Source: Flavitalea plasmicola (GTDB taxonomy: Bacteria; Bacteroidota; Bacteroidia; Chitinophagales; Chitinophagaceae). From it: a DNA stretch of 64,000 nucleotides. Below are positions 24,857 through 34,303 of this stretch, in pieces (within the stretch, counting starts at the first letter, position 1; every line of letters begins with the position of its first letter). The translations under genes were made by a program, and so were the position numbers. The DNA lies in contig NZ_JAUOTO010000010.1 of NCBI RefSeq assembly GCF_030546645.1, forward strand, positions 124,001 to 188,000, given 5' to 3'. Under the pieces are notes generated by a model that ran no database searches, had not been told where the DNA came from, and worked only from the letters and a program-made list of their open reading frames with translations.

Positions 24857-27037
24857 TCAGTAGATTTTTGATAGGAGCTCCTCAAAAGCTATATCCATCA
24901 CCGGGTACGCCTTATACCCTTCGAAATCGAAATGCCACCATTCACTGGGAAAGATGACAAAGCCATGCTTCAGCATCACATCCTGCAATAACTGCCGGTT
25001 TTTCCGCTGGGTCTCGGTGACGCCGGCATAATCGGCGGCAGCCCGTCGGGTAAAATCATCGTAAGATGTCGGCATGTCCAGCTCCTTACCTGTTCTCAGA
25101 TCCACCAGCGTCAGGTCCACCGCGCATCCCCGGTTATGGCGCGAGCCGGTATAGGGCGAAGCGACAAAGTTGGAATCGTGATAGGCTTCCCAAAAATCTA
25201 CCGTCACCCTGTAGGGCCTGTAGCCATCATAGACCTTCACGCCATAGCCCATCGGTTTCAGCTCCTGTGCAACATCCCGCAAAGCCTCCGCAGCGGGGAG
25301 GCGCAGGAAAGCCGCCGCGGTCCTGTACATGGGACGATGCATGATATTGTTATTCGTCGCATAGCGGATGTCGAGCCGGACGTCCGGGATGAATTTGTCC
25401 AGGGCCACGATCTCCTGCCGGGGATGGGCGACCACCAGCTGCCGGTATTCCGCGACGGAGGAAATGGTTTTCAGTCCGTATCTCGCAAAGATGGACGGAG
25501 ACGATGACGCGTCCGATCCCTGCCCGGGAGTGGACCGTCCATATCCTTGTCTGGCCGCCGCCTCTTTGATATGGTAGGCCTGTATCAGGGCGGGGTTCTC
25601 TGGTGACAGCGTAAAATGTACCTCCAGGTCGGCCTTTTCTCCCACGATCCGGAAGGTCCCCCGCAGCTGATTCTCCGGAACGATCTCTTCCACACGAAGG
25701 ACCTTGCCAGCCTTATTGAAAAGCGTGGTAGCCTCTTTCCGCAGTGAATCGATGAGATAATCGTCAAAGAAGTTCTCGCTGAATATCCCGCTGGCGGGTG
25801 CATTCTTCCAGTCAGGCAATAAAGCCATCAGTTGCTGCTGTCTTTGGCGGAGAATGTCCGACACCGGCAGCTGCCGGGGTCTGAGCTGCGCAAGCGCTAT
25901 CAGCTCCTCCATGACCTGCGCATTCAAGGCTGCTGTACCTTCATAAGTGAGGTTACAGAAGGAGACGACACCAATGCCATATTCGGGCATAATGATCCAG
26001 TTGCTGCCAAATCCGGGTAGCCCACCGCTGTGACCGATGAACTCTTTGCCCGTGCAGTTCCTGCTCCAGGAAAGACCGAAATTATAAGCCGATATACGGG
26101 GACACAATTCCCCCGCGGCATTGCGGTTCTGTGTATAGAAGCCGCTGATCTTGCCCGGCTGATGCATCTCCCGCACCGAGCTGCGTTTCAACGGTCCTGT
26201 CTCTGCGCCATTCCGGGGTGGCCAGGCCGAAAGGTGAAAGCTCATATAGCGGCTGAAGTCTTCCAGGGATGTGAGCATGCCGCCCATGGCGCCATACGCC
26301 CCGCTGTGCAGCATGGCTTCCTCTTTCCATTGGTTGTTGAGCCAGCGATAGCCATGCGCAAGATCTTCCGGCTTTGCCTCTGTATATTCCCAATACGTAT
26401 GCTCCATGCCCAGTGGCTTGAAGATGGTACGGCGGATATATTGTTCAAAGGGCTCACCGGAAACCTTGGTAACGATGTGCCCCAGCAGCGTAAAGCCCAG
26501 GTTGCTGTACTCATAGGCCAGCCCGGGGGTATTGGACAAAGAGACACCGCCTTTTATAAAGTTGATCAGCTCTTCATCCGTGCGCTGTAACTGCCGGTCG
26601 CCCCAGGGATTGTCCTCTGGAAAGCCGGCTGAATGGCTGAGCAGGTGACGGATGGTGATAGGAGGGCTGTCGTCTGTCAGCGGCCGTATCTGCTTCATCT
26701 CCGGGATATATTTATACACCGGGTCGTCAAGGTCCAGCTTGCCGGCATCCCGCAGCGACAGGATCGCCATGGCGGTAAAGCTCTTGGTCATCGAAGCGAT
26801 GCGGTATACGGACTTTGCCGTCACGGGCGTTCTCTTTTTAACATCGGCATAGCCGAAAGTTCCGGTGTGCACCAGCTGCCCGCCCGCCACGATGCCGTAC
26901 GCGAGACCAGGAATATGGTGCTTTTCTGCATAGGCTTTATACAGGCTGTCGATGACAGGAAAGGCTACTTCCAGGTTTTGTCCGACGGCGCTGACAGAGA
27001 GAAAACACGAAAGGATAATGAGTTTGGATCTGGTCAT
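24857..27037 (-). CDS. Serine hydrolase (class C beta-lactamase fold)-VanX-type D-Ala-D-Ala dipeptidase fusion
   Basis: A 726-residue exported protein (signal MTRSKLIILSCFLSVSAVGQ). Residues about 25-380 are a beta-lactamase/penicillin-binding-protein-like hydrolase: Ser82-x-x-Lys85 in YRIASMTKSF, Tyr177-Ser-Asn in YEYSNLGF and the third box GHSGGLPG. After a linker domain to about 540, the C-terminus is a zinc D-Ala-D-Ala dipeptidase of the VanX/DdpX family: DVRLDIRYATNNN, VYDGYRPY, the zinc ligands His634 and Asp641 in SRHNRGCAVDLTL, and Glu699/His702 in PSEWWHFDFEG. One protein could thus cleave a D-amino peptide bond of peptidoglycan and then split D-dipeptides (inference). The RpiR gene ends upstream with a 5-base gap, same strand, implying an operon. 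Confidence 0.9.
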   Translation of the reverse strand: MTRSKLIILSCFLSVSAVGQNLEVAFPVIDSLYKAYAEKHHIPGLAYGIVAGGQLVHTGTFGYADVKKRTPVTAKSVYRIASMTKSFTAMAILSLRDAGKLDLDDPVYKYIPEMKQIRPLTDDSPPITIRHLLSHSAGFPEDNPWGDRQLQRTDEELINFIKGGVSLSNTPGLAYEYSNLGFTLLGHIVTKVSGEPFEQYIRRTIFKPLGMEHTYWEYTEAKPEDLAHGYRWLNNQWKEEAMLHSGAYGAMGGMLTSLEDFSRYMSFHLSAWPPRNGAETGPLKRSSVREMHQPGKISGFYTQNRNAAGELCPRISAYNFGLSWSRNCTGKEFIGHSGGLPGFGSNWIIMPEYGIGVVSFCNLTYEGTAALNAQVMEELIALAQLRPRQLPVSDILRQRQQQLMALLPDWKNAPASGIFSENFFDDYLIDSLRKEATTLFNKAGKVLRVEEIVPENQLRGTFRIVGEKADLEVHFTLSPENPALIQAYHIKEAAARQGYGRSTPGQGSDASSSPSIFARYGLKTISSVAEYRQLVVAHPRQEIVALDKFIPDVRLDIRYATNNNIMHRPMYRTAAAFLRLPAAEALRDVAQELKPMGYGVKVYDGYRPYRVTVDFWEAYHDSNFVASPYTGSRHNRGCAVDLTLVDLRTGKELDMPTSYDDFTRRAAADYAGVTETQRKNRQLLQDVMLKHGFVIFPSEWWHFDFEGYKAYPVMDIAFEELLSKIY

Positions 27038-27042
27038 GGTGT

Positions 27043-27891
27043 TTAGTTGTAATAAACGTTCTCTTCTTCCACCAGCTTTTTATAAGCGGCCGACTGCCGG
27101 GTGGATTGCGGCTTTGTCATTTCCACGATGCAATGCTTGATGGCGTTACAGATGCTGAAAGCCCCGATCAGCGGGCTGAGAAAATAATTGGGCGCCGGAT
27201 GGACAAAGAGCTCATGCCTGCTATAGGCGCACAGGGGAGAATATTCACTGTCCGTCAGCGCGATGGTCGTCGCTCCCTTTTCCTTTGCTTTCTTCAGGGC
27301 TTTGATCGTCTGGTTCTGGCATTGGTCAAATCCAATGGCCAGCACGACATCGCCTTTGCCAAAATGTCCCATGTAATCGAACAGCATGCCATTGTATTCC
27401 GTGATGGCATGGGTTTGGGGAAGATGGCTGCGTAGGAGGCTTTGCAGATAATTGGCTACGTTGCCGATGTATCCCAGTCCGATGATATAGGTCTGCCGGG
27501 AGCCGATGATGGCCTGGCAGGCCAGCATGATCTTTTCGAAAGAAACTTTTTCAATGGTCCTGCTCAACATTTCCAGGTCCCTGGACAAGGCATTGCGAAT
27601 GGCCTCATCCGTGCTGGTGCTGACGGCAAATTCACTGAGGACCTGGCTGAAGGAACTTTTTCTATCCGTGCGCATGAGCTTTTCCTTCAGCCTTTTTTTC
27701 AGATCGTGAAAGCCTTCCAGTCCAATACCCTGGCAAGCCTTGATGATGGTCACGGGGTCTACCTTCAGCTTTTTTGCCAGGTCGGATGTATTCATGGATA
27801 TGATCTCCTCCGGATGATCAAGGACGTATTTGATCACTCTGTATTTTTTCTTGGGCAGCAGCTCCAGGTCGAGTCCTTTTAAGAAATCCAT
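27043..27891 (-). CDS. RpiR family transcriptional regulator
   Basis: A 282-residue regulator. Residues 1-77 form the RpiR HTH_6 domain (ISMNTSDLAKKLKVDPVTII then GLEGFHDLKKRLKEKLM); residues about 120-250 form a SIS sugar-phosphate-binding domain (TYIIGLGYIGNVANYLQSLL, KGDVVLAIGFDQCQNQTIKA, ATTIALTDSEYSPLCAYSRH). RpiR proteins often sense amino sugars or peptidoglycan-derived molecules, as MurR does with MurNAc-6-P. The gene is read with the hydrolase/VanX fusion and is divergent from the dgcN-dgcA-like pair, so it is the natural candidate to control both. A dyad TCAATA-tttt-TATTGA (27939-27954) lies in its own leader. Confidence 0.9.
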   Translation of the reverse strand: MDFLKGLDLELLPKKKYRVIKYVLDHPEEIISMNTSDLAKKLKVDPVTIIKACQGIGLEGFHDLKKRLKEKLMRTDRKSSFSQVLSEFAVSTSTDEAIRNALSRDLEMLSRTIEKVSFEKIMLACQAIIGSRQTYIIGLGYIGNVANYLQSLLRSHLPQTHAITEYNGMLFDYMGHFGKGDVVLAIGFDQCQNQTIKALKKAKEKGATTIALTDSEYSPLCAYSRHELFVHPAPNYFLSPLIGAFSICNAIKHCIVEMTKPQSTRQSAAYKKLVEEENVYYN

Positions 27892-28177
27892 ATTTATACG
27901 GTTAATCTTTTTCTAAGGTAAATGTAAGTTTGCAAAAGTCAATATTTTTATTGATTTTTTATTTTTGTCAATGGTTGCGTGTAGTTTTAGGTTTGGTTAG
28001 GTTTTTCTTTATTGGTATTCCCGACAGCTATAGGCCTTCCGTCGCTGTACATTCGGTACCACTGCGCATTTGTTGTTTATTGAGCGGATAGTCTATTGGA
28101 CAGTTGTACCTGAATCTCCTACCCGAATGTAAGGCTCCTCCAGGTCATAGCTGATCGGCTGCCCACGGATGCGGCAA

Positions 28178-28235
28178 GAGGGGATTTGACAAGAGGATTT
28201 AACAAAGAGGATTTGACAGATAGGATTTTGACAAA
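28178..28235 (+). repeat. Degenerate 14-15-bp direct repeat array (4 copies)
   Basis: Four head-to-tail copies of GAGGATTTGACAA-like units: 28178-28192 (GAGGGGATTTGACAA), 28193-28206 (GAGGATTTAACAAA), 28207-28220 (GAGGATTTGACAGA) and 28221-28235 (TAGGATTTTGACAAA). The conserved core GGATTTGACA resembles TTGACAA seen in the RpiR leader on the other strand, so it may be a binding array for that regulator. Confidence 0.75.
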
Positions 28236-28414
28236 CGGGACGAGTTCGCAGAGATAGAGTCAGCGACTTGCCATTCCGGGGCCTTGAGGTCGACCCTGCC
28301 CTGGAACCGCCTAAATTTCGATGGTAGGGATTTTTGCATCTGTTGAATAGTGTGTCGGCTCAAGTATATTCGATGCTGACAGAAAGAGAAATTTCAGCGG
28401 TGGAAGGGTTAGGG

Positions 28415-28506
28415 TCGCCGAAAATGCGGAGAAGACGTCGCCGAAAATGCGGAGAAGACGTCGCCGAAAATGCGGAGAAGACGTCGCCGAAAATGCGGAG
28501 AAGACG
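28415..28506 (+). repeat. Perfect 23-bp tandem repeat (4 copies)
   Basis: TCGCCGAAAATGCGGAGAAG followed by ACG is repeated four times without a mismatch (28415-28437, 28438-28460, 28461-28483, 28484-28506), ending 61 bases before the DgcN-like start. The 23-bp period is about two helical turns and not a multiple of three, which argues for DNA or RNA function or slippage rather than coding. No spacers, hence not CRISPR. Confidence 0.95.
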
Positions 28507-28567
28507 CCCCCGACACACTAGAAAAGAAAACCCTCAGCGAAAATCACACAGCACCTAAACAAACAAA

Positions 28568-29656
28568 ATGAACACCAACGCCATCATACTCACCGCCGGC
28601 ACCCTCACCGGCTCCAACGCGAAAACAGCCCACGGACTTATCCGATCCAGCGGACGCTATACCATCATCGGCGTCATCGACGACAAGACCGCCGGTCGCG
28701 ATGCCGGCGAGGTCCTGGACAAGATCACGAGGGACATCCCGATCTACGCCAGCCTCGGCGACTTTCAGCGACGCTCGGATAAAAGAGCGCAATATGCCGT
28801 CGTTGGCGTTGCCTTTGCCGGAGGTAAGCTGCCGGCGCCCATACTCGACCAGATCAGGGACGCTATCCAAGCCGGCATTTCCATCGTGTCCGGCGCCCAT
28901 GACTTTCTTTCCGATATGCCTGACATACGGCAGTTGGCCGCGGAAAATGGAGTAACCCTGCTGGATATACGAAAGCCACGGCCGAAGGACCAGCTGAAAT
29001 TCTGGTCAGGCGCCATTATGGAGGTGACTGCGCCGGTCATAGCCGTCATGGGTACGGATTGCGCCCTGGGCAAACGGACCACGGCCGTGATGATCACCGG
29101 CGCCATGAAAGAAAAAGGTGTCCGCGCGGAAATGATCTTCACGGGTCAGACGGGATGGCTGCAGGGACATCGCTATGGGTTTGTGCTGGACAGCACCTAC
29201 AACGATTTTATCTCCGGTGAGCTGGAGCATGCCGTGGTCTCCTGCTGGAAAGAAACGGATGCCGACGTCATTTTCATCGAAGGCCAATCGGCCCTCTGCA
29301 ACCCCAGCGGTCCCTGCGGCTCGGAATTGCTGCTCTCTGCACAATGCAAGGGCGTCATCCTGCAGCATGCGCCGGGCCGGATATACTACAAGGGCAAGGA
29401 AAGCACGGGCAACAAAATATCCCTGGCAAGGGAGCTGGAGCTCATCCGTCTTTACGGCTCCCGCGTGCTGGCCATCACCCTGAACACGGCGAAGCTCACG
29501 GCCGAAGAAGCCCGCGGCTACCAGGAAAGGCTGGAAAATGAATTTGGCCTGCCCGTGATCCTTCCGCTGGAAGACGGTATGCATCGCCTCTCCGAAATTG
29601 TACGGGAATATGTGGCGACATTCAAGAACATTCCTTTTAAAAGCACACCATCATGA
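28568..29656 (+). CDS. dgcN: DgcN-like (DUF1611) protein, putative D-glutamate N-acetyltransferase
   Basis: A 362-residue cytosolic protein with the two DUF1611 domains: an N-terminal Rossmann-like part (IILTAGTLTGSNAKTAHGLI, GVIDDKTAGRDAGEVL) and a C-terminal P-loop domain from about 150. The P loop is MGTDCALGKRTT (Gly162-Thr172), followed by FTGQTGWLQGHRYGFVLDST, DADVIFIEGQSAL and HPSGPCGSELL-like CNPSGPCGSELLL. DgcN of marine Proteobacteria, in this family, acetylates D-glutamate to N-acetyl-D-glutamate. The next gene (29653) is a DgcA-like epimerase and overlaps as ATGA, the same pair. Assignment is by family and context; amino acid specificity is not proven. Confidence 0.78.
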   Translation: MNTNAIILTAGTLTGSNAKTAHGLIRSSGRYTIIGVIDDKTAGRDAGEVLDKITRDIPIYASLGDFQRRSDKRAQYAVVGVAFAGGKLPAPILDQIRDAIQAGISIVSGAHDFLSDMPDIRQLAAENGVTLLDIRKPRPKDQLKFWSGAIMEVTAPVIAVMGTDCALGKRTTAVMITGAMKEKGVRAEMIFTGQTGWLQGHRYGFVLDSTYNDFISGELEHAVVSCWKETDADVIFIEGQSALCNPSGPCGSELLLSAQCKGVILQHAPGRIYYKGKESTGNKISLARELELIRLYGSRVLAITLNTAKLTAEEARGYQERLENEFGLPVILPLEDGMHRLSEIVREYVATFKNIPFKSTPS

Positions 29657-30720
29657 AGATCCAACGCATCCATGTCAGGAAGGAAGACCTGCTGCTTACC
29701 CGTCCTTATACCATCGCTTTTAAGACCGTGGACGCCGTGGAGAATGGCATCATCGAGATCATCGCCGACAATGGATTAAAAGGTTACGGCGCATTCAATC
29801 CCAGTCATTTTGTGGTGGGCGAATACCTGGACGACGCTCTGGCCACGTTGAACGAGGGAAATCTTTCGGTCCTCATCGGCCGGGAGCTGGATGATATCGA
29901 CGCGCTCTGTGCGATCGTGCAGCATACCTTTAAGGCCAGTCCGACGGCGCGCACCGGCCTGGAGATCGCCCTTTACGATCTTTTCACGCAAGGGCTGGGA
30001 TTGCCGCTGGCGGGTTTCCTGGGCCAGCGGATCACGTCCATGCCTACCTCCATTACCATTGGGATCAAAGGTGTTGCCGGGACGCTGGAGGAAGCAAGAG
30101 AATATACGGACCGGGGATTTAAGATACTAAAGGTGAAGCTGGGCATCTCGCTGCAAGAGGACCTGGAAAGGCTGATCCGGCTACGCGAAACATTCGGGTA
30201 TGGCATCGGCATCATCATCGATGCGAACCAGGGATATAATGGGACGCAGCTGTCGGCCTTTACGGCGCAAACCCGGCGCCTGCAGATCGGCCTGATCGAG
30301 CAGCCCCTGCCCGTTGGACAGGAGGACACGATGCGCCGGCTGCCGGATGATATCAAAAAGCTCGTCGCCGCCGATGAATCCCTCGTCACGCCTGAGCACG
30401 CGACAAAGCTGGCTGCCGCACCCGCCGCCTGCGGATTTTTCAACATCAAGCTGATGAAGTGCGGCGGCATAAGCCAGGCCCTGCGGATCGCCGACACGGC
30501 CGCCCGGCATTCCATCGATCTCATGTGGGGCTGCAATGATGAAAGCATCATCAGCATCACCGCCGCCCTGCATACGGCCTTCTCCTGCCCCCATACGAAA
30601 TTCATCGACCTGGACGGCAGCCTGGACATGGCCAGGGATGTGGTGGCGGGCGGCTTCCTGCTGAAGGACGGCATCATGTCTATTTCCGGTAAGCCGGGCC
30701 TGGGGCTGACAGCGCTGTAA
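29653..30720 (+). CDS. dgcA: DgcA-like enolase-superfamily racemase/epimerase
   Basis: A 355-residue member of the muconate-lactonizing/dipeptide-epimerase group. The catalytic set is complete: Lys160-Val-Lys162 (FKILKVKLG), metal ligands Asp190 (IIIDANQGY), Glu216 (GLIEQPLP) and Asp241 (AADESLVTP), and opposite base Lys266 (FFNIKLMKCGG). Two Lys bases mean 1,1-proton transfer, that is epimerisation. Family members include L-Ala-D/L-Glu epimerase (peptidoglycan recycling) and DgcA, which turns N-acetyl-D-glutamate into the L form. The C-terminal specificity strand reads MWGCNDESI. Coupling with the DgcN-like gene favours DgcA; a dipeptide epimerase role remains possible. Confidence 0.78.
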   Translation: MKIQRIHVRKEDLLLTRPYTIAFKTVDAVENGIIEIIADNGLKGYGAFNPSHFVVGEYLDDALATLNEGNLSVLIGRELDDIDALCAIVQHTFKASPTARTGLEIALYDLFTQGLGLPLAGFLGQRITSMPTSITIGIKGVAGTLEEAREYTDRGFKILKVKLGISLQEDLERLIRLRETFGYGIGIIIDANQGYNGTQLSAFTAQTRRLQIGLIEQPLPVGQEDTMRRLPDDIKKLVAADESLVTPEHATKLAAAPAACGFFNIKLMKCGGISQALRIADTAARHSIDLMWGCNDESIISITAALHTAFSCPHTKFIDLDGSLDMARDVVAGGFLLKDGIMSISGKPGLGLTAL

Positions 30721-30919: not shown

Positions 30920-33900
30920 ATGGCGACGACAACTCCACTGGACGATGAGCTGCATTGGTATAAGGATGCGATCATCTACGAGCTGCATATAAAGGCCTTC
31001 TGTGACGGCGACGGCGATGGCATAGGTGATTTTCAGGGTCTTCTGCAGAAGCTGGACTACCTGCAGGACCTTGGCGTCACGGCCATCTGGCTCCTGCCCT
31101 TTTATCCTTCGCCTTTAAAAGATGACGGCTATGACATTGCGGATTACTACAACATCAACCCGTCCTATGGAGATATCGCCCGCTTCCGCCACTTTTTGAA
31201 AGAAGCCCACAAACGCAATCTGAAAGTGATCACGGAGCTGGTGATCAACCATACCTCAGATCAGCATGCCTGGTTCCAGCGGGCCCGCAGGGCGCCCAAA
31301 GGTTCAAAAGAAAGGAACTTCTATGTCTGGACCGACAATCCCGATCAGTACAAGGACGTCCGCATCATCTTCCAGGACTTTGAAGCTTCCAACTGGACCT
31401 GGGACCCTGTTGCGGAACAATACTATTGGCACCGCTTCTTCCATCATCAGCCCGACCTGAATTACGACAATCCCCTGGTGCAGGAAGAGGTGCTCCGCAT
31501 CATCGACTACTGGTGTAAGATGGGCGTGGATGGTTTCCGGCTGGATGCCGTGCCTTACCTCTATGAAAGGGAAGGGACCAACGGGGAGAACCTGCCTGAG
31601 ACACATGTCTTTTTAAAAAAAATGAGGAAATATGTGGACGAGCATTATCCCGGCACGGTATTCCTTGCCGAGGCAAACATGTGGCCGGAAGATTCCGTCT
31701 CCTATTTCGGGGATGGCGATGAATGTCATATGAACTATCATTTCCCCGTGATGCCCCGCATGTTCATGGCCCTCCAGATGGAAGACCGTTATCCCATCAC
31801 CGATATTTTCGAACAGACGCCCGACATTCCACCCACCTGCCAGTGGGCTATCTTCCTCCGCAATCATGACGAGCTCACATTGGAGATGGTGACGGATGAA
31901 GAGCGCGACTATATGTATAAGGTCTATGCCAGGGACCCGAAGGCGAAGATCAACCTGGGCATCCGCCACCGCCTGGCGCCGCTGTTGGACAACAGCCGGA
32001 GCAAGATGGAATTGCTGAACTCGCTGCTCTTCTCCCTGCCCGGAACGCCCGTGATCTATTACGGCGATGAGATCGGCATGGGTGATAATTTCTACCTGGG
32101 CGACCGGGACGGGGTGCGAACGCCGATGCAATGGTCGCCGGACAGGAACGCAGGCTTTTCAGGCGCCAATCCCCAGAAACTTTACCTGCCCCTGATCCTG
32201 GATCCCGAATATCACTACGAGTCGGTGAACGTGGAGACCCAGCGCAGCAACACGTCTTCGCTGTTCTGGTATATGAAGCGGATCATCAGCGTAAGGAAAA
32301 AGTTCAAGACCTTCGGCAGGGGCAGCCTGAAATTCCTCAATACGGAAAACCCCAAAGTCCTCACCTTTACGCGCACGTATGAAGAAGAGACGCTGCTGAT
32401 CGTTGTAAACCTGTCAAAATTTTCACAGGCGGCGGAAGTGGATCTGCTGGCCTACAAAGGTTATGTTCCCGTGGATGTGTTTAGTAAAAACCGGTTTCCC
32501 GTGATCAAAGACGACGGGTCCTACTTTTTTACGCTAACGCCTTACAGTTTCCAGTGGTTTGTGCTGGAGAAGGCCCACCCGGAAATGGATGAGGACAAGC
32601 CGTTGCCGGGACTCATCCTCCGGCAATGGGAAGCATTGATGGAAGGCAGCGCCCTCCGGCAGCTGGAAAGCAATATCCTGCCGCGCTACCTGCAAAAAGT
32701 AAAATGGTTCACCGGCAAGGACAGGAGCCTGTTCCAGGTGAGCGTCTTCGACTTCATAAAAGTGCCGTTTGACGGTCGCCCGGCCTTCTGGCTCCTCCTG
32801 GAGATCGCAGAGCAGAATGGTACCTCCGGCCTCTATCAGCTGCCGGTAGTATTTATCAATAATGAACAGGCGGACAAGATCGCCGGCGTTTCTCCCGAAG
32901 CATTGATAGCCCGGGTCCGTGGCGAAGAAGGGGAGGGGGCCATGGTGGACGCATTTTTTGTCCCCGAATGGCAGGTGGAACTGTTCCACAGGATGGCGGG
33001 ACACAAGCCGATCACCGCCACCGGACGGCGCATCGAATTTGCAGGTAATGGCATATTGAAGACCAGCCTGGAAAAAGGAGAAGTCATTCCCCGCATACAT
33101 ACATCAGACCTTTTCAATACTTCCATCACCTACAATGGCACTTTCTTTCTGAAGATGTACCGCAAAGTGGATATTGCCATCAATCCGGACCTTGAAACGA
33201 CCCGGTTCCTGACGAAGGAAGCTGCATTCCAATATATCCCTGCTTTCATCGGCGATGTCCAATGGAAGATCAAAAAAGGTCCCATCGTGCTGGGATTGAT
33301 GCAGGAGATGATAGAGAATCACGGGGATGGCTATTGCTATTTCCAGGAACGCATCCATAACTATATAGAACGCGTGCAGGCGGGCGGCAAGGACGTGCTG
33401 CTTTGGGAACAACGGCAGGGTACCCTCATGGCGCCTGTATCCTTCGATGTATTGCCTCCCGACCTGCAGGCCCTGCTGGGTAGTCCGGCCGCAGAACAGG
33501 CCCGCCTGCTCGGCACTCGCACTGCGCAGCTGCATATGGCCCTTGCCTCCGGCGCCGGGGACAAGGATTACAGGCCCGAAGCCTTTTCTCTCCATTATCA
33601 GCGTTCACTTTTTTCATCGTTGCAATCGCTGGTAAGGGAGACCTATCAGAACCTTTCGCGCAATAAAAGCAAGCTCCCGGCAGACATGCAGGCCAACACG
33701 GAAAGGATTACGGCCTATCGGCCCAGGTTGCTGGCGATCTTCAAACGTATCTATGCGAAAAAGCTGGATGCACTGAAAATACGTATCCATGGCAATTTCC
33801 ACCTGGGACAGGTGCTGCTCACCGGTAAGGATCTTGCCATCAGCGACTACAGCGGCGATCCAACCCTCAGCTACAGTGAAAGGAGATTGAAACGTTCGCC

Positions 33901-34303
33901 CCTGATCGACCTGGCTTCCATGGTCCTGTCCATCCATAAGGTGGCTTTCGAGGGATTTTTGAATGACCCGCAGCTGCAGGAGGCCGACCGCATCGCTTTA
34001 CGGCCTTTTGCCGCCCTCTGGGCGCACTATATGAGCGGCTTTTTTATCGATGCGTATATGGCCGGGGTAAAAGGCGCCCATTTGCTGCCCGCGGATGGGA
34101 ACGACCTGGAGATGATGTGGCAGAACTACCTGCTGCAACGGGCGATACAGGCGTTTAATGAGGCATTGAGGAACGATCCTTCCCGATTGATCATTCCGCT
34201 GACCCTGATCCGGAATATTCTGCGCGAAGACGCGCCCGCCGCTCAACGGACGAGCATGACGGTGCCGGAAACCAGCCTGCGTGCGCCTGTTGCATCTTCA
34301 TAA
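30920..34303 (+). CDS. treS: Trehalose synthase (TreS, GH13_16)-maltokinase fusion
   Basis: A 1127-residue cytosolic fusion. Residues about 10-555 are TreS, which interconverts maltose and trehalose: WYKDAIIYELHIKAF, nucleophile Asp209 (GFRLDAVPYL), acid/base Glu251 (FLAEANMWPED) and stabiliser Asp317 (LRNHDELTLE), then the C-terminal sandwich to YSFQWFVLE. Residues about 590-1110 are the Mak/Pep2 maltokinase that feeds maltose-1-phosphate to the GlgE pathway; MLRSFHYA-like LIDLASMVLSIHKVAFEGF is visible. Oddly the kinase catalytic loop reads HGNFHLGQ with Asn959 where HGD is normal, and the metal motif reads SDYSGDP (Asp976) instead of DFEGEP. Kinase activity is therefore doubtful. The 3' end overlaps the convergent gene by 61 bases. 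Confidence 0.93.
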   Translation: MATTTPLDDELHWYKDAIIYELHIKAFCDGDGDGIGDFQGLLQKLDYLQDLGVTAIWLLPFYPSPLKDDGYDIADYYNINPSYGDIARFRHFLKEAHKRNLKVITELVINHTSDQHAWFQRARRAPKGSKERNFYVWTDNPDQYKDVRIIFQDFEASNWTWDPVAEQYYWHRFFHHQPDLNYDNPLVQEEVLRIIDYWCKMGVDGFRLDAVPYLYEREGTNGENLPETHVFLKKMRKYVDEHYPGTVFLAEANMWPEDSVSYFGDGDECHMNYHFPVMPRMFMALQMEDRYPITDIFEQTPDIPPTCQWAIFLRNHDELTLEMVTDEERDYMYKVYARDPKAKINLGIRHRLAPLLDNSRSKMELLNSLLFSLPGTPVIYYGDEIGMGDNFYLGDRDGVRTPMQWSPDRNAGFSGANPQKLYLPLILDPEYHYESVNVETQRSNTSSLFWYMKRIISVRKKFKTFGRGSLKFLNTENPKVLTFTRTYEEETLLIVVNLSKFSQAAEVDLLAYKGYVPVDVFSKNRFPVIKDDGSYFFTLTPYSFQWFVLEKAHPEMDEDKPLPGLILRQWEALMEGSALRQLESNILPRYLQKVKWFTGKDRSLFQVSVFDFIKVPFDGRPAFWLLLEIAEQNGTSGLYQLPVVFINNEQADKIAGVSPEALIARVRGEEGEGAMVDAFFVPEWQVELFHRMAGHKPITATGRRIEFAGNGILKTSLEKGEVIPRIHTSDLFNTSITYNGTFFLKMYRKVDIAINPDLETTRFLTKEAAFQYIPAFIGDVQWKIKKGPIVLGLMQEMIENHGDGYCYFQERIHNYIERVQAGGKDVLLWEQRQGTLMAPVSFDVLPPDLQALLGSPAAEQARLLGTRTAQLHMALASGAGDKDYRPEAFSLHYQRSLFSSLQSLVRETYQNLSRNKSKLPADMQANTERITAYRPRLLAIFKRIYAKKLDALKIRIHGNFHLGQVLLTGKDLAISDYSGDPTLSYSERRLKRSPLIDLASMVLSIHKVAFEGFLNDPQLQEADRIALRPFAALWAHYMSGFFIDAYMAGVKGAHLLPADGNDLEMMWQNYLLQRAIQAFNEALRNDPSRLIIPLTLIRNILREDAPAAQRTSMTVPETSLRAPVASS

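Follow-up and report, generated by a model that had tools for sequence, protein, structure and literature searches.

A divergent DUF1611–enolase and RpiR–VanX locus in Flavitalea plasmicola as a candidate salvage module for D-amino-acid peptides

The genome of Flavitalea plasmicola (Bacteroidota, Chitinophagaceae; 8.7 Mb in 19 contigs) carries a compact four-gene locus in a 64,000-nucleotide stretch of contig NZ_JAUOTO010000010.1, the whole of which is referred to here as the window. A serine hydrolase–VanX fusion and an RpiR-family regulator are encoded on one strand, divergent from a DUF1611 protein and an enolase-superfamily enzyme on the other (Table 1). The stop of the DUF1611 gene and the start of the enolase gene overlap by 4 bp, and a gap of 676 bp separates the regulator gene from the DUF1611 gene. 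All four proteins have Pfam matches above gathering scores, and the open reading frames (ORFs) and domains bear out the genes, strands and coupled pair as the first-pass annotation of this DNA described them. The arrangement is real and limited to one lineage, and the pair at its core is known and widespread. What is new is the arrangement alone, as the inner DUF1611–enolase pair is a known, little-understood pairing.

Table 1. Genes and promoter features of the locus, in window positions.
Feature	Position	Strand	Basis
Serine hydrolase (PF00144)–D-Ala-D-Ala dipeptidase (PF01427, VanX-type) fusion, signal-like start	24857..27037	-	726 aa ORF, Pfam
RpiR-family regulator (HTH_6 + SIS)	27043..27891	-	282 aa ORF, Pfam
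50-bp block, 38/50 identical to L002	27929..27978		Ungapped matching
Palindrome TCAATA-N4-TATTGA, candidate RpiR operator	27939..27954		Shared core among relatives
DUF1611 P-loop protein, DgcN superfamily, below curated DgcN cut-off	28568..29656	+	362 aa ORF, Pfam, fold
Enolase-superfamily dipeptide-epimerase-type enzyme, Methylococcus (3rit) type	29653..30720	+	355 aa ORF, Pfam, structure, tree

The pair is conserved well beyond this genome. Its neighbourhood was tallied in the best 80 of 559 relatives, a set in which near kin are therefore over-represented; L002 and L109 share a contig, as do L003 and L110. One locus (L021), where the simple gene caller called no DUF1611 ORF, was dropped, leaving 79 loci, and gene gaps and overlaps were computed from longest-ORF starts. 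An enolase lies within 6 kb of the DUF1611 gene in 70 of these 79 loci. Sixty-eight enolases lie within 1 kb of DUF1611: 46 of them share its strand with a gap of no more than 20 bp, and 29 have overlapping genes. The phylum was also sampled evenly; among 198 genomes PF07755 scores over its cut-off in 40 (41 matches), and an enolase sits within about 1.5 kb in 18 of the best 30 of those 41 loci, counting that of the window. The association of DUF1611 with an epimerase is already known from annotation names, since the DUF1611 homologues P0075 and P0110 are annotated "Protein often near L-alanine-DL-glutamate epimerase (cell wall recycling)", which describes the pair itself.

The enolase contains the MR_MLE_N and MR_MLE_C domains. 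Its best sequence match in the PDB is 3rit (348 bits; the next sequence scores 167 bits), titled as a Methylococcus capsulatus dipeptide epimerase complexed with Mg and L-Arg-D-Lys. An AlphaFold2 model (mean pLDDT 88.2) superposes on 3rit with a TM score of 0.95 at 50% identity. D190, E216 and D241 align with residues 191, 219 and 244 of Bacillus subtilis YkfB, which we take to bind the metal. K162 and K266 align with YkfB K162 and K268, its two catalytic lysines according to a review of L-Ala-D/L-Glu epimerases (PMC5808125). K266 is invariant in an 11-sequence alignment. Residue conservation was read from 87 enolases, namely the window's and those of the fetched DUF1611 loci, leaving out repeated loci and sequences no longer than 320 aa. 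D296 is present in 85 of them (Glu in 2) and D325 in 86, while K160, K162, D319 and D321 are found in all 87. Both D296 and D325 occur in 3rit and both are absent from 1jpm, 2zad, 2p88, YcjG, B. thetaiotaomicron 3iji and one annotated DgcA. Together, the enolase fold, the two catalytic lysines, the DxD motif and the D296/D325 residues shared with 3rit place the enzyme in the Methylococcus type. The M. capsulatus epimerase (3rit, 3ro6) also has the D296/E297/S298 and DLDGS.D motifs in common with it. The comparison of the two pockets relies on what we take to be the ligand-contacting residues of 3rit. The DxD motif was tried as a test between dipeptide epimerases and N-acetyl racemases, and it decides nothing because L162's annotated DgcA also carries it.

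A quick tree, in which long branches meet, groups the DUF1611-linked enolases with 3rit (SH-aLRT 99) and separates DgcA and YcjG from them (99). The nearest fetched relatives of the window's enolase belong to L003 (Chitinophagaceae bacterium, 83%) and L002 (Sphingobacteriales bacterium 50-39, 81%). The DUF1611–enolase pair of L036, titled Thalassovita sp., has an enolase that falls among those of Bacteroidota in the tree, and the sequence probably comes from a mis-assigned bin. The host genome encodes two further enolases at E 1e-10, L218 and L219. L218 (C14:530460-531470) is closest to 3jva (40%) and 1jpm (35%), and its gene overlaps a D-aminoacylase-type gene; no DUF1611 match was found in the 4 kb read near it.

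The DUF1611 protein comprises the DUF1611_N and DUF1611_C domains and has the two-domain P-loop DUF1611 fold also seen in 2obn, in 2g0t and in 7xrj, an entry titled DgcN-25328. It has the motifs GTDC..GK..T and TGQT in common with DgcN. Fold matches outside the family have far weaker E-values and comprise P-loop proteins, including dethiobiotin synthetases, and NADP-dependent reductases. At E 1e-30, the protein has matches in 19 of 117 sampled genomes of the family and 8 of 33 of the genus. Homologues also occur in 34 Erwinia/Dickeya phage records (e.g., H56 and H58), and the five phage rows listed show about 30% identity over 73-78% of the query.

In a 37-row tree, supported branches separate the window's DUF1611 protein from DgcN. 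The rows were labelled by the racemase or epimerase next door: 11 with a Methylococcus-type enolase, five with a second Asp296 enolase type, four DgcN, four with a PLP racemase, and 13 unlabelled. Four of the 11 Methylococcus-type rows (P0004, P0030, P0069 and P0110) are labelled by kinship, with the partner unread. Among the DgcN rows, L166 has no dgcA in its annotated 17 kb and the L130 enolase was judged by residues only. Some unlabelled rows (L157, L136) sit inside labelled clades with no enolase within 1.5 kb. Read in this way, the labels change three times along the tree, which is the minimum; shuffled labels change 11.8 times on average, and none of 200 shuffles is as low. This is a strong hint, short of a full test, that among rows with a readable neighbour the DUF1611 clades track which kind of racemase or epimerase adjoins the gene. 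On four plasmids (Vibrio lentus, Aliiroseovarius, Ruegeria and Phaeobacter; L159, L160, L161 and L165), the DUF1611 gene has a 4-bp overlap with a racemase gene, which is annotated as alanine racemase (one) or as an alanine/ornithine racemase family PLP-dependent enzyme (three), a partner unlike an enolase.

The divergent arm begins with the regulator, whose HTH_6 and SIS domains both exceed Pfam gathering scores and which falls below the MurR model (NF012026, 37.3 bits against a cut-off of 408). The first-pass annotation had proposed RpiR control of the locus, and the divergent promoter adds a conserved palindrome to that proposal. The best ungapped window–L003 match (34/50) starts 12 bp further upstream than the block conserved with L002 and includes the palindrome; the best L002–L003 match is 36/50. 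In shuffle controls the maxima were 31, 30 and 30, and none of 60 shuffles for each of the three pairings reached the observed value. The core is common to the window, L002 and L003, in the window's form or close to it. By its sequence alone the palindrome does not exceed chance at the scale of the window, with two matches (one site, both strands) against 1.08 expected. It counts through its place and conservation only. The family of the regulator and the position of its gene suggest that RpiR may bind there.

Beyond the regulator lies the fusion gene. Its product matches PF00144 at 251.8 bits and PF01427 at 111 bits (gathering score 27). Inspection by eye finds SMTK, YSN and HSG in the serine hydrolase part, SRHNRGCAVD and EWWH in the VanX part, and a Sec-type signal-like stretch at the N-terminus; these motifs agree with what we take to define serine hydrolases and the zinc and catalytic residues of VanX. 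The protein scores below the curated cut-offs for VanX/DdpX (NF033115, 88.2 against 320 bits; PRK10178, 159.3 against 176 bits) and for class C beta-lactamase (NF033085, 115.2 against 415 bits). PF01427 has a single match in the host genome at E 0.001, that of the fusion. VanX is single-copy in all four genus genomes with a close DUF1611 homologue; three of them have it within this locus, whereas in the remaining genome it is on a different contig. In the genus at large, co-occurrence shows no clear link, as VanX is found in six of the eight DUF1611-carrying genomes and in 15 of the 25 others.

The linkage of all four genes, whose absence from related genomes would count against the first-pass reading, is largely missing beyond close kin. 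The full set was found among the fetched loci in the window, L002 and L003 only; in the neighbour tally RpiR is near DUF1611 in two of 79 loci and VanX in three, and at E 1e-30 the RpiR protein is matched in one of the 117 family genomes, the window's own. In metagenomes, 11 longest-contig sizes are equal between the DUF1611 clusters and the VanX-domain clusters listed (120 of each) (e.g., 17194, 104364, 36748, 18764, 101287 and 39139). These equal sizes suggest, circumstantially, that the two kinds of cluster share contigs. The VanX partner domains in those clusters vary (PF00144, PF13354 with PF00144, alpha-fucosidase). VanX domains fused to alpha-L-fucosidase occur in P0157, P0159, P0160, P0162 and others, and further listed fusion partners are PF20329, PF01244, a cyclase and PF13354; judged by equal contig size, some of these fusions appear to lie on contigs with DUF1611.

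The pair is repeatedly flanked by hydrolases for which there are precedents of action on D-residues or wall peptides, and the D-amino-acid and wall-peptide theme of the first-pass annotation is upheld in that respect. The tally covered seven families. At least one lies within 6 kb in 47 of 79 loci and in 12 of 20 loci of the family set. In the 79 loci these include PF13354 (22), D-aminoacylase-type (13), GH3 (12), amidase (8) and M14 (7), and D-aminoacylase-type genes occur in 8 of the 20. The label "D-aminoacylase-type" draws on the PDB kin of one protein and on an NCBIfam amidohydrolase subfamily whose cut-off is missed in five. That one protein, the L121 amidohydrolase, has as PDB kin a D-aminoacylase (1m7j, 259 bits) and an N-acyl-D-glutamate deacylase (3gip, 217 bits), and it and several like it have signal-like N-termini by eye. 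A within-locus control compared bins of distance from DUF1611, running from the nearest 2.5 kb to 7.5-10 kb. Hydrolase genes per 100 kb number 12.2 in the nearest bin and then 4.4, 1.6 and 5.1 in the 80-locus set; the values are 9.1 and then 2.3, 2.4 and 2.0 in 18 family loci. The nearest bin holds all D-aminoacylase-type genes (13 and 8), all seven M14 genes and 17 of 23 PF13354 genes. GH3 and PF00144 were set aside as evidence, as their counts by bin in the 80-locus set (1, 7, 3, 10 and 9, 7, 3, 10) show no clustering. In L004 and L005, a D-aminoacylase-type gene, short or cut, is divergent from DUF1611, on the side that RpiR and the VanX fusion occupy in the window; the L004 piece, with 196 aa and 110 bits, is a short and weak match. 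In some relatives the pair has permeases for amino acids or a Na:Ala symporter next to it.

We read the locus as a salvage module for D-amino-acid peptides, most likely peptidoglycan fragments, with a probability of about 0.55. Outside the cytoplasm, the fusion protein would trim D-terminal peptides, judging by its domains, motifs and signal-like start, with VanX-type cleavage of D-Ala-D-Ala or a similar D-dipeptide. The products would enter through a separate permease. Inside, the enolase, whose fold, catalytic residues and clade are established, would invert the alpha carbon of what is presumably an amide-held D-residue. The coupled DUF1611 enzyme probably makes or handles the amide-bound substrate, by analogy with the acetylation of D-glutamate by DgcN. 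The retained Asp296 and Asp325 would suit a positively charged or zwitterionic side chain (Lys, Orn, Arg or diaminopimelate) rather than D-Glu, and on these residues a cationic or zwitterionic side chain is favoured. An RpiR protein at the palindrome would, given its family and position, couple both arms to a sugar phosphate, perhaps a wall-derived one. If this reading is true, Bacteroidota have an added route for D-amino acid recovery.

Several observations weigh against this reading. No searched hydrolase lies near the pair in 32 of 79 loci (some contigs being short) and in 8 of 20 family loci. The enrichment is no independent test, because the families were picked for recurrence and the loci are related. 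GH3 and PF00144 carry little weight because in the 80-locus set they turn up no less often at 7.5-10 kb than close to the pair; PF00144, with 22 matches in the host genome, says little by itself, and PF07969 has 2-19 matches per genome. The VanX link to the pair is lineage-specific, because 21 of the 33 genus genomes carry VanX, some of them with DUF1611 and some lacking it. No transporter was found within the window's module. Nine of 79 loci have no nearby enolase, although the L004 contig ends at DUF1611 and that of L053 ends 1.3 kb after it. In the enolase-less L026 and L027 the next gene has the same length and a near-identical start (a sodium:alanine symporter in L026), and in L056 an aminotransferase gene overlaps DUF1611 upstream. 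The pocket is only partly kept, because residue 51 is Glu in 3rit and Ser in the window and 65 of the 87 enolases, and Glu51 presumably matters for specificity in the 3rit type. An acid at 296 may not be unique to that type, because Enterococcus faecalis 3jva, with one extra loop residue and without D325, reads E or A there by alignment. K24, present in 66 of the 87 enolases and aligned with YkfB Arg24, would also suit an acidic group.

The main alternative is the one put forward by the first-pass annotation, a D-glutamate pathway of the DgcN/DgcA type. The DUF1611 enzyme would N-acetylate D-Glu (or D-Asp, or amides), and the enolase would invert N-acetyl-D-Glu to the L form. Both enzymes and their route are mentioned in PMC10845958 and PMC11747546, and DgcN is the sole DUF1611 function met in the parts of the literature searched. 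The window's genes encode the same two superfamilies in the same order, likewise coupled, with a DUF1611 fold equal to that of 7xrj and both DgcN motifs. K24 could hold the gamma-carboxylate, the D-aminoacylase-type genes with N-acyl-D-glutamate deacylase kin adjoin the pair in relatives, and PMC12363236 reports dgcN in Bacteroidetes. However, the window's proteins fall far below the curated cut-offs, the DUF1611 protein scoring 149.3 bits on the DgcN model (NF041892, cut-off 480) and the enolase 140.9 bits on the DgcA model (NF042940, cut-off 400), and control pairs pass both: 523.4 and 422.7 bits for L162, 560.9 and 509 bits for L129. Because L129 belongs to the same phylum and passes both cut-offs, pairs that fit the DgcN/DgcA models coexist there with the window's type. 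Both trees place the window's proteins in other clades, the enolase with 3rit and apart from DgcA and YcjG, and the compared DgcA has neither D296 nor D325. On cut-offs, enolase residues, trees and the L129 comparison we reject strict DgcN/DgcA identity, and the sequences do not support the D-glutamate assignment made at first; a looser pathway of this type is improbable.

Two further alternatives keep an epimerase and change its role. The enolase could be a genuine dipeptide epimerase that acts on cationic dipeptides whatever their source, such as proteins or lipopeptides, with the link to wall hydrolases incidental. The closest solved structure is indeed bound to L-Arg-D-Lys, DUF1611 partners elsewhere include the PLP alanine/ornithine-type racemase, and no wall gene is common to all loci. 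However, D-aminoacylase-type genes cluster tightly at the pair, single-copy VanX lies within the locus in three close genomes, and M14 genes adjoin the pair in 7 of 79 loci, all of which weighs against an incidental link; this alternative is slightly less probable than the D-glutamate route. A house-keeping role for the enolase, as the L-Ala-D/L-Glu epimerase that serves murein recycling with DUF1611 as a helper, is very unlikely. The annotation name of the DUF1611 kin and the best NCBIfam match, an L-Ala-D/L-Glu epimerase model (NF041118), point in that direction, but the 176.7 bits scored are far from that model's cut-off of 500, a second such model (NF011708) is also missed (84.9 against 343 bits), and the active-site residues differ. 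Moreover, L219 of the same genome is 39.5% identical to B. thetaiotaomicron 3iji, which we take to be an L-Ala-D/L-Glu epimerase, and by sequence it is the better candidate for the ordinary enzyme.

Apart from the salvage reading of this locus, a broader proposal concerns DUF1611 as a whole and is offered tentatively. Its members in general would be enzymes that modify amino acids or dipeptides, and every clade would keep to a single kind of partner that inverts stereochemistry, be it DgcA, the Methylococcus-type enolase, the second Asp296 enolase type, or the PLP alanine/ornithine-type racemase. The window's clade might then belong to a D-residue pathway not yet described, which could for instance invert a basic D-amino acid or a D-residue adjoining diaminopimelate. 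An interchangeable, putatively exported D-peptidase would supply the feed, with RpiR control in close kin. If clades do track partner kinds, they offer a concrete route to assigning the remaining DUF1611 proteins.

The first-pass annotation also considered the grouping of the four functions to be new. No account of a VanX-RpiR-DUF1611-epimerase grouping was found in the open-access literature searched. The novelty of the grouping is reduced because annotation names link DUF1611 with an epimerase and because dgcN in Bacteroidetes is in print (PMC12363236). Another known system bears comparison with the outer arm. The B. subtilis murQ-murR-murP-amiE-nagZ cluster presumably combines an RpiR-family regulator with a PF00144 hydrolase. 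Unlike in that cluster, the window's hydrolase is fused to VanX and divergent from DUF1611–enolase, and a MurQ homologue over its cut-off is encoded on another contig of the host genome.

The genes around the locus do not appear to be module members. Five flanking window proteins had no blastp match (E 1e-5) among the ORFs of L002-L005, L109 and L110, a result that rests on L002 and L003 because L004 and L005 are short contigs; the enolase and RpiR, used as positive controls, were both matched. Downstream of the enolase gene, a trehalose synthase-maltokinase fusion is encoded at 30920-34303, with no homologue in those parts of L002 and L003 that were read near the pair. Between the promoter block and the DUF1611 start, a 23-bp tandem repeat, which has no further copies in the 64-kb window at up to three mismatches, occupies 28414-28513 in four units (97% match).

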